The notes under the pieces are model-generated. The model searched no databases and was not told the origin of the DNA. It saw only the letters and a list, made by a program, of their open reading frames with translations. Below are positions 50,445 to 52,420 of a stretch of 64,000 nt of DNA, piece after piece. The stretch lies in assembly GCF_016134045.1 (NCBI RefSeq), contig NZ_CP065915.1:3290501-3354500 (forward strand). Direction: 5' to 3'. The position numbers and the translations under genes are program-made. This DNA comes from Pelagovum pacificum (GTDB lineage: Bacteria; Pseudomonadota; Alphaproteobacteria; Rhodobacterales; Rhodobacteraceae). How positions within the stretch are numbered: position 1 is the first letter of the stretch; each line of letters begins with the position of its first letter.

Positions 50445-50695
50445 CATCCCTTCCCGGCACCGCCAGTCGGGGCAAGGCGGCACGTCTCATTCTGCTGTCA
50501 TACACGTGCGGAAGACCCAGAATGGGGTCCCAATAGGGTAAAACAGTGAAATTCCATTAAGTGAACACCGGGAATGTCACGCCGAATGCATTGAATTGTT
50601 GGCAAATTTCTCGAAATCTGCTTGTTGAAAAATCAACTCGAGATTTTCCGATCCTAACTCTTTTCAAACTGTTCGCGGCGATTATAGTGCCCGCC
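50445..50695. promoter_or_regulatory. AT-richer control region upstream of the leu leader
   Basis: No gene. The stretch 50560-50690 is clearly richer in A/T than coding DNA. It has a GTTGA-AAAA-TCAAC inverted repeat (50624-50637) and TATAGT near 50684, a likely -10 element just before the leader ATG. No GG-rich ribosome site precedes that ATG. Confidence 0.45.
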
Positions 50696-50779
50696 ATGAA
50701 GTCCGAGCGTCATATCCTTCCCGCAGCCATCCTTGGCCTGCCGCGCCTCGGCCTTCGCCTGCTCCTTAGTCGCCTCTGA
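50696..50779 (+). CDS. candidate leucine-rich leader peptide of leuA
   Basis: 27 codons: MKSERHILPAAILGLPRLG then LRLLLSRL. Nine of 27 residues are Leu, three in a row (CTG CTC CTT). The stop is 72 bases before leuA. A stem CTGAGCG / CGCTCAG (50776-50782 with 50801-50807) overlaps the stop codon, and CTCCTT in the triple-Leu run can pair with AAGGAC, the leuA ribosome site (50841-50846). This is the pattern of leucine-responsive attenuation, in which a ribosome stalled at Leu codons exposes leuA. No U-tract terminator was found, so control may be translational. Confidence 0.6.
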   Translation: MKSERHILPAAILGLPRLGLRLLLSRL

Positions 50780-50851
50780 GCGTGCCCTCATCGGCGCGAC
50801 CGCTCAGGGGAGGACCAGCGCCGAAGAGACATAGCAGACGAAGGACCAGAC

Positions 50852-52420
50852 ATGACCACCGATCCCAACCGAGTATTGATCTTCGACACCACCCTGCGTG
50901 ACGGAGAGCAGTCCCCCGGCGCCACCATGACCCATGCCGAGAAGCTGGAAATCGCCCAGCTGCTCGACGAGATGGGCGTCGACATCATCGAAGCCGGCTT
51001 CCCGATCGCCTCCGAGGGCGACTTCCGCGCGGTGAAGGAGATCTCAGAACGCGCGCAGAATGCGACGATCTGCGGCCTCGCCCGCGCGAACTTCAAGGAC
51101 ATCGACCGGGCGTGGGAGGCCGTGCGCCCCGCCAAGAGCCCGCGCATCCACACCTTCATCGGCACCTCGCCGCTGCACCGGGCCATTCCGAACCTCGACA
51201 TGGACCAGATGGCGGAGCGGATCCACGATACGGTGACCCATGCCCGCAACCTCTGCGACAACATCCAGTGGTCGCCGATGGACGCGACCCGGACGGAGTG
51301 GGATTACCTCTGCCGAGTTATCGAGATCGCCATCAAGGCCGGTGCGACGACGATCAACATCCCCGACACGGTTGGCTATACCGCGCCGGGTGAAAGCGCC
51401 GACCTGATCCGCCGCCTGATCGCGACCGTTCCCGGCGCCGACGAGGTGGTGTTCGCGACGCACTGTCACAACGACCTCGGCATGGCGACGGCGAACTCGC
51501 TGGCGGCGGTCGAGGGCGGCGCCCGCCAGATCGAATGCACGATCAACGGTCTGGGCGAGCGGGCCGGCAACACGGCGCTGGAAGAAGTCGTGATGGCGCT
51601 CAGGGTGCGCAATGACATCATGCCGTACTCGACCAGCATCGACACGACGAAGATCATGAATATCTCTCGCCGCGTCGCGACCGTTTCGGGCTTCGCCGTG
51701 CAGTTCAACAAGGCGATCGTCGGCAAGAACGCCTTCGCCCACGAGAGCGGCATTCACCAGGACGGGATGCTCAAGAACGCCGAGACGTTCGAGATCATGC
51801 GCCCCGCCGACGTCGGCCTGTCCGAGACCTCGCTGGTCATGGGCAAACACTCTGGCCGGGCCGCGCTGCGGGCGAAGCTGAAGGACCTCGGCTTGGAACT
51901 GGCCGACAACCAGCTGAACGACGTGTTCGTCCGGTTCAAGGACCTCGCCGACCGCAAGAAGGAAGTCTACGACGAGGACATCGTCGCGCTGGTTCGCCAG
52001 AACGAGGGCGCCGAGGATCACCTGAAGCTCGTCTCACTGCGTGTCGTCTGCGGCACCGCCGGCCCGGCGGAGGCTGAAATGGCGATCAGCGTCGATGGCG
52101 CGGAGCAGACGGTCTCCGCGACGGGTGACGGCCCGGTCGATTCCGCCTTCAACGCCGTGAAGTCGGTGTTCCCCCATGGCGCGCGGCTGGCGCTCTACCA
52201 GGTGCATGCGGTGACCGAAGGCACGGACGCGCAGGCGACCGTGACCGTCCGGCTCGAGGAAGAGGGGCGCATCGCGACCGGCATGTCGGCGGACACCGAC
52301 ACGGTCGTCGCCTCGACGAAGGCCTACATCAACGCGCTGAACCGGCTGATCGTGCGCCGCCAGAAGACGGCGCCCGGCGTGGACACGAAGGAAGTGTCCT
52401 ACAAGGACGCTGGCGAGTGA
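50852..52420 (+). CDS. leuA: 2-isopropylmalate synthase
   Basis: First committed step of leucine synthesis: acetyl-CoA plus 2-ketoisovalerate. 522 residues, normal for LeuA type 1. [42 protein letters not shown] (metal His pair), [15 protein letters not shown] and the C-terminal regulatory domain (from about 390) that binds leucine are all visible. AAGGAC lies five bases before the ATG. Likely controlled by the leader peptide. Confidence 0.97.

Follow-up and report, generated by a model that had tools for sequence, protein, structure and literature searches.

The leuA gene of Pelagovum pacificum is preceded by a short leucine-rich reading frame that, judged by sequence comparison, is real and conserved, and we think it rather probable that this frame belongs to a leucine-responsive leader-peptide attenuator acting mainly on translation of the next gene, leuA. 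Comparison establishes, at the level of sequence, the frame, its codon positions and the helices, which covary, and likewise that a U-tract is lacking. In the window (the whole 64,000-nt stretch analysed, to whose forward strand all coordinates refer), the frame MKSERHILPAAILGLPRLGLRLLLSRL (50696–50779) encodes 27 residues, nine of them Leu, and is probably leaderless; its TGA stop codon occupies 50777–50779, and the ATG of leuA lies at 50852, 72 nt downstream. The product of leuA (50852–52420, 522 aa) is identified as a 2-isopropylmalate synthase by its profile scores (NF002087, 848.1 bits against a cut-off of 729; TIGR00973, 658.1 bits against 598.7), and a Shine-Dalgarno (SD) sequence, GAAGGA, was read from the sequence at 50840–50845. 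Among the best 80 of 578 LeuA matches, in which the organism's own genome is possibly absent, the top matches are from Rhodobacterales, the closest named one being from Rubellimicrobium mesophilum (83% identity in the best segment). An initial annotation had described a 27-residue frame with nine Leu lying 72 nt upstream of leuA and containing three adjacent Leu codons, CTG CTC CTT; both observations hold, the codon block occupying 50759–50767, where CTT, at −12 from the stop codon, is the most conserved control codon.

Conservation was assessed in a panel of 186 distinct leuA upstream regions, including that of the window. The LeuA loci came from named genomes (80, the best 80 of 578 matches) and from same-family genomes, the panel being drawn from the window, same-family genomes, L004–L051 and L066; 115 same-family regions, a subset of the listed places, were taken besides 30 plus four further loci. 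L018 (too short), eight duplicates and L047 and L151 (no LeuA motif) had been left out and 31 loci from other Alphaproteobacteria set apart, and a few rows of the panel (two Neomegalonema and some other Alphaproteobacteria) may fall outside Rhodobacterales. With a leader defined as an ATG frame carrying at least three Leu within six residues near its C-terminus, 171 of the 186 real regions contained one. Reverse complements gave one in 4 of 186 and dinucleotide shuffles in 61 of 930. Chance may account for a few of the 171 frames, four having neither CTT nor CTA at −12. Twelve of the 15 regions missed proved to have a leader when rechecked with more upstream sequence, with an extra gene in between, farther up or in weaker form, which takes the total up to 183 of 186. 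In ten of the 15, the element stands directly before a gene of 117–124 residues placed between it and leuA; in L154 the leader has fewer Leu and in L188 it ends 323 nt upstream of leuA. No leader was found in L019, L046 or L218 even with extended upstream sequence. L019 has a co-directional frame before leuA; in L188, with its distant leader, no co-directional frame of at least 80 residues was found to end near leuA.

The putative control codon is conserved at one fixed place. Four codons before the stop (−12), 111 of the 171 leaders have CTT and 56 have CTA, 167 together; the leuA sequence of these loci, for many of them the start of the gene only, has 2,691 Leu codons, of which these two supply 199. 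The hexamer CATATC (50711–50716, codons His6–Ile7) is likewise conserved among leaders at the nucleotide level, His6 being encoded by CAT in 90 of 96 leaders, against 476 CAT and 571 CAC in the leuA sequence of the panel loci; a search for an RNA partner of this hexamer found none, GATATG being present downstream of 2 of 82 leaders. The peptide most often ends in SRL (63 of 171 leaders). The middle of the peptide varies widely and conservation near the stop is at the nucleotide and codon level, which argues against a peptide acting elsewhere in the cell, in trans, as reported for peTrpL; an alphaproteobacterial leader peptide acting in this way is reported in the part of PMC7298713 covered here, and we consider a trans-acting peptide very unlikely at this locus.

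The leader start has features of its own. A −10-like box, TATAGT (50683–50688), ends 7 nt before the leader ATG and is separated by a 16-nt spacer from a −35-like box, TTTTCA (50661–50666), the two boxes together giving nine of 12 consensus matches. With the leader ATGs superimposed, the panel regions share a box resembling TTTTCA, a −10-like box and, in most cases, a C at −1. Leader ATGs were assigned by the His-Ile motif where present and otherwise as the last ATG, a choice fixed before spacing was measured; 114 of 171 leaders then have a −10-like hexamer no more than 30 nt from the ATG, and in 101 of these it ends 6–8 nt upstream of the ATG. A −35-like box accompanies the −10 in 99 of the 171. 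The identical −10 test before leuA gave 33 matches at scattered distances. SD-like 4-mers precede five of the 171 leader ATGs versus 67 of the 171 leuA ATGs. Because the promoter-to-ATG spacing is conserved and SD-like sequence is rare before the leader, a leaderless start is likely, and transcription would probably begin at or next to the leader ATG. The initial annotation had likewise remarked on an ATG near TATAGT without a clear ribosome site and suggested that the mRNA may be nearly leaderless, an idea that the conserved spacing and the scarcity of SD-like sequence favour indirectly.

The Leu run itself is tied to the sequence in front of leuA. In the window, the strand CCTTCGCCTGCT (50752–50763, codons Leu20 to Leu23) can pair with AGCAGACGAAGG (50833–50844), which covers most of the leuA SD; this helix, P1, has 11 pairs and one mismatch and covers GAAGG of the SD. 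It had been proposed that the Leu-codon block pairs with the leuA ribosome site; TCCTT can indeed pair with AAGGA, and the better helix is P1, which is longer and lies more 5′. Across the panel, the complement of a leader's own 6-mer at offset −13 occurs downstream in 51 of 171 cases, versus 11.4 with shuffled labels, and own complements are in excess at every offset from −20 to −10, that is, over the Leu run and the next codon (z 3.2–13.9), with a smaller excess at −25 (z 3.1). GCTAAG lies downstream of 43 of the 82 leaders with CTTAGC and of three of the 89 others, GCTTAG downstream of 6 of 14 with CTAAGC and CGTAAG downstream of 3 of 7 with CTTACG; rarer types mostly show little or no own complement (CTAATC, 1 of 13; CTTACC, 0 of 7). 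With the CTTAGC type removed, own complements remain in 12 of 89 leaders versus 2.5 with shuffled labels (highest value 8 in 2,000 shuffles), these shuffles leaving the relatedness of the sequences in place.

Nine of the 171 leaders were left out for distance in the helix, duplex-energy and blocking tests, leaving 162. Contiguous helices scoring at least 20 were found for 34% of own partners, 7.6% of swapped and 2.5% of shuffled ones. Good P1 helices occur in 84 of the 162, with the 3′ strand at a median of −26 to −19 from the leuA ATG; it reaches −15 or beyond in 21 of the 84 and usually ends upstream of the SD. Broad duplex energies, computed between up to 38 nt of leader and the 58 nt before leuA in the 162 sequences, were the same for real sequences (−19.45) as for dinucleotide shuffles (−19.45), with −17.88 for swapped partners, and the own partner was among the best 5% in 8% of the 162; since these energies show no gain, the claim for P1 is carried by the contiguous-helix and k-mer covariation tests. 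The fold of the window is of ordinary stability (z −0.72 and −1.21), and because the window alone is not unusually stable, the evidence for structure is comparative. An ordinary single-sequence fold is also what a chance frame would give; relatives, however, conserve both the frame and its Leu codons, and this, together with the covariation, makes chance a negligible explanation.

Blocking the Leu run in silico raised mean accessibility of leuA positions −16 to −8 from 0.531 to 0.618 in the 162 sequences, with increases above 0.05 in 76 and decreases above 0.05 in 27; in the window, accessibility of the SD did not rise (0.446 to 0.423). Blocks elsewhere also lifted the −16 to −8 mean, to 0.589 at the stop codon and 0.565 in the early leader (124 sequences), and over −35 to −17 the stop-codon block (0.544) exceeded the Leu-run block (0.521). 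The effect of blocking is thus modest and not specific to the Leu run.

Between the two strands of P1, the leader stop codon sits in a hairpin that covaries and includes a strand capable, on sequence, of forming a pseudoknot. The 5′ strand of P2, CCTCTGAGCG (50773–50782), contains the stop codon and forms 10 bp with CGCTCAGGGG (50801–50810) in the window. Within it, GTGCC (50782–50786), whose first base can pair in either P2 or P3, faces TCGGCGC (50791–50797), of which GGCGC (50793–50797) pairs with GTGCC to form P3, or the whole pairs with GCGCCGA (50818–50824) to form P4, the outermost pair of P4 being read from the sequence. P3 and P4 are mutually exclusive because one strand is common to both; P2 and P4 both covary and could together form a pseudoknot, with P3 competing for the strand of P4. 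The initial annotation had placed a 7-bp stem over the leader stop: the stop does lie inside a stem, the length of which is 10 bp (CCTCTGAGCG with CGCTCAGGGG), and the alternating helix P3/P4 exists besides the stems it named. The check it proposed, for a conserved frame, Leu codons and stems in Rhodobacteraceae relatives, turned out in its favour, the frame recurring in 171 of 186 regions and the stems as conserved and covarying elements.

Structures were aligned for 70 of the 171 leader regions, in which RNAalifold recovered a hairpin enclosing the leader stop codon. Of the P2 cells, 97.9% are paired, and three of the nine pairs show double changes; P3 (GUGCC with GGCGC) is paired in 97.1%, and P4 (GGCGC with the downstream GCGCC) in 97.9%, a C-G pair being replaced by U-A in six sequences. 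For P2 and P4 together, 38 cells changed on both sides versus 8.7 in column shuffles (reached by 0 of 500), five pairs showed double changes versus 3.0 (24 of 500 shuffles reached five) and 20 pair types were seen versus 16.4 (eight of 500 reached 20), so that two of the five measures were reached by some shuffles; these shuffles, too, leave the relatedness of the sequences in place. Sliding the P2 and P4 registers by 1–3 columns left 32–52% of cells paired. A further covarying pair joins the base preceding P4, located in the P3 loop, to the one that follows the partner strand (C-G 26, G-C 10, U-A 4, U-G 3), 27 of the 70 regions being unpaired there. Three leaders, L036, L039 and L040, end in LR or LH and have an altered hairpin tip (GGGTC..GGGCC); they were scored as unpaired in the P4 register, and inspection by eye suggests that a shifted register would let CCGGGC and GCCCGG pair.

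No terminator-like site was found in the window, and U-runs are scarce in the panel: a run of five T between leader and leuA occurs in 1 of 171 leaders, as do at least six T in the 12 nt after P2. The absence of a U-tract terminator claimed by the initial annotation thus extends to relatives, and classical attenuation is unlikely because there is no terminator-like site in the window and U-runs are rare in the panel. We infer a leaderless start, stalling, the direction of the response and translation as the controlled step, which would combine as follows. A ribosome would start at the leader ATG without an SD site. With ample Leu-tRNA, it would pass the Leu run and end at the stop codon inside P2; on its departure, the Leu-codon strand could pair with sequence at or immediately 5′ of the leuA ribosome site (P1), while P2 with P4 or P3 would compact the space between the P1 strands, and translation of leuA would be held down. 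With scarce Leu-tRNA, the ribosome would stall in the Leu run and cover the 5′ strand of P1, freeing the leuA ribosome site.

The scarcity of U-runs also suits the main rival, Rho-dependent transcriptional attenuation, in which completion of the leader would leave untranslated RNA before leuA on which Rho could terminate, a stalled ribosome or the P1/P2 state preventing this. The stop codon and hairpins are fixed although no terminator-like site is seen, and where a second gene precedes leuA the element is kept in front of the pair, an arrangement that control of the operon as a whole would account for; in the part of PMC1262725 considered here, Rho-dependent control is named as a possibility for actinobacterial cys leaders. 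The covariation, however, ties the Leu codons to a strand near the ribosome site of the first gene, for which Rho control has no need, and we regard Rho-dependent control as a possibility of some weight, though not a probable one.

The ten two-gene loci bear on translational control as well. In them, the element lies directly before the inserted gene, and L009 has GGCTAAGGA 7 nt before the ATG of that gene; element and P1 strand stay together in front of the inserted gene, which fits control of whichever gene follows. Placed between the leader element and leuA, the inserted gene of 117–124 residues is probably under the same control as leuA. It is present in L009 (578–934), L027, L103, L104, L113, L121, L138, L148, L165 and L185; the L009 product, the only one searched, is a cupin (PF07883), and the other nine begin alike.

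Outside the panel, we recorded Leu-rich frames whose stop codon lies in a helix of at least seven pairs. Such frames were found in 169 of the 186 panel regions (9 of 558 shuffles), in 42 of 64 regions from other Alphaproteobacteria (9 of 192 shuffles) and in 3 of 18 from other Pseudomonadota (4 of 54 shuffles), the last showing no clear excess. The 64 combine the 31 loci set apart with 33 best-scoring LeuA matches (three duplicates dropped), and because the 33 were chosen by score, LeuAs close to that of the window are over-represented among them; a LeuA search of 124 genomes of the class gave no match at E 1e-100 in 57. From other Alphaproteobacteria, 49 leaders were selected by hairpin, Leu content and a last residue of P, L or F, and these three features are therefore not independent evidence; CTT at −12, which was not a selection criterion, is present in 48 of the 49. 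A run of five T occurs in two of the 49 and the 6–8 nt −10 spacing in one, and the P1 signal is weaker in the other Alphaproteobacteria (z at most 4.5). Many of them have the hairpin as CCCCTGAG with CTCAGGGG, with a different apical part.

These leaders help to weigh a further explanation, in which the P2/P4 structure is the receptor for a regulatory protein or a small molecule, the Leu-rich peptide being of lesser importance. The strong sequence conservation of TGAGCGTGCC and GGCGC would suit a binding site, and the authors of PMC1262725, in the part of that article considered here, favour a protein for the actinobacterial LEU element. Against it, a Leu codon rare in leuA is fixed at one place in 167 of 171 panel leaders, and CTT is present in 48 of 49 others; in other Alphaproteobacteria the codon and the stop hairpin stay while the apical part differs; a binding structure is accordingly an unlikely account. 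An RNA model, R1, built from the 70 Rhodobacterales-type regions (E-values rough) gave matches at E 0.01 in 10 of the 241 class genomes, four in the family of the window, its own genome included, and six elsewhere; in its own genome it gave one match at E up to 1. Given these ten matches, it is the leader frame and the stop hairpin, not R1, that carry the claims for the class as a whole.

Attenuation of translation by a leader peptide therefore remains our preferred reading, and we put forward more tentatively, as something that may well prove too broad, that it represents an ancient, class-wide leucine switch of Alphaproteobacteria. In such a switch, the Leu control codons would double as the strand that closes off the ribosome site of the gene behind them. 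The sensor frame would be leaderless in Rhodobacterales, and the stop codon of the frame, four places after a fixed Leu codon, would be part of a switching hairpin. The system would be the translational equivalent, so far undescribed, of the leu attenuator, and either kin to the actinobacterial LEU element or a product of convergence with it. If so, Alphaproteobacteria would gain a terminator-free form of leucine sensing of about 150 nt, recognisable over much of the class, and a clean test case for translational amino acid attenuation, a matter left unsettled for actinobacteria in the relevant part of PMC1262725. The small gene behind the leader in ten loci, a cupin in the one case searched, may by its position belong to leucine metabolism.

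A search of openly accessible papers returned no account of such a leuA leader for Alphaproteobacteria. Vitreschak et al. in 2004 and later comparative work on attenuators may list leuA of some members of the class. The classical leu attenuator is leuL of enteric bacteria, which encodes a Leu leader peptide; both place a run of Leu codons in a leader peptide upstream of leuA, and the present element differs in having no U-tract terminator and no Rfam match, neither in the whole window at the gathering score nor in 50500–51000 at E up to 5. Translational attenuators of erm genes expose the downstream ribosome site when a ribosome stalls on the leader; the present element would do the same, with leucine shortage rather than an antibiotic as the signal.

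The portions of PMC2965389 and PMC4833913 covered here hold no alphaproteobacterial account. In Sinorhizobium meliloti, trpL is, according to the part of PMC10117765 considered, a leaderless leader gene and tryptophan attenuator that yields the sRNA rnTrpL; the present frame, probably leaderless too, likewise encodes a leader peptide ahead of a gene for amino acid biosynthesis in a member of this class. The difference lies in the tryptophan attenuation and the sRNA of trpL, no terminator having been found in the window.

In the LEU element described before actinobacterial leuA (Seliverstov et al. 2005, PMC1262725; as far as the sections considered go), the leuA SD is paired to a run of Leu codons, and the enclosed region holds a pseudoknot. 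This element is reported there not to behave as attenuation when its Leu codons were changed, and its authors hold a protein to be more likely than attenuation. Both systems have a Leu-rich leader frame with a Leu-codon run before leuA and, in those sections, no terminator described. In the window, P1 covers the SD as the LEU base stem does; over the panel, the strand covaries and usually ends upstream of the SD. A counterpart of the LEU pseudoknot could form here from P2 and P4, with P3 as a competitor. The two differ in phylum, in the bacterial-type LeuA found here (TIGR00973), in the probably leaderless leader and in the stop codon lying in a long hairpin. Likened in this way from the published description, the actinobacterial LEU element is, among the described systems found, the one closest to the alphaproteobacterial leuA leader.
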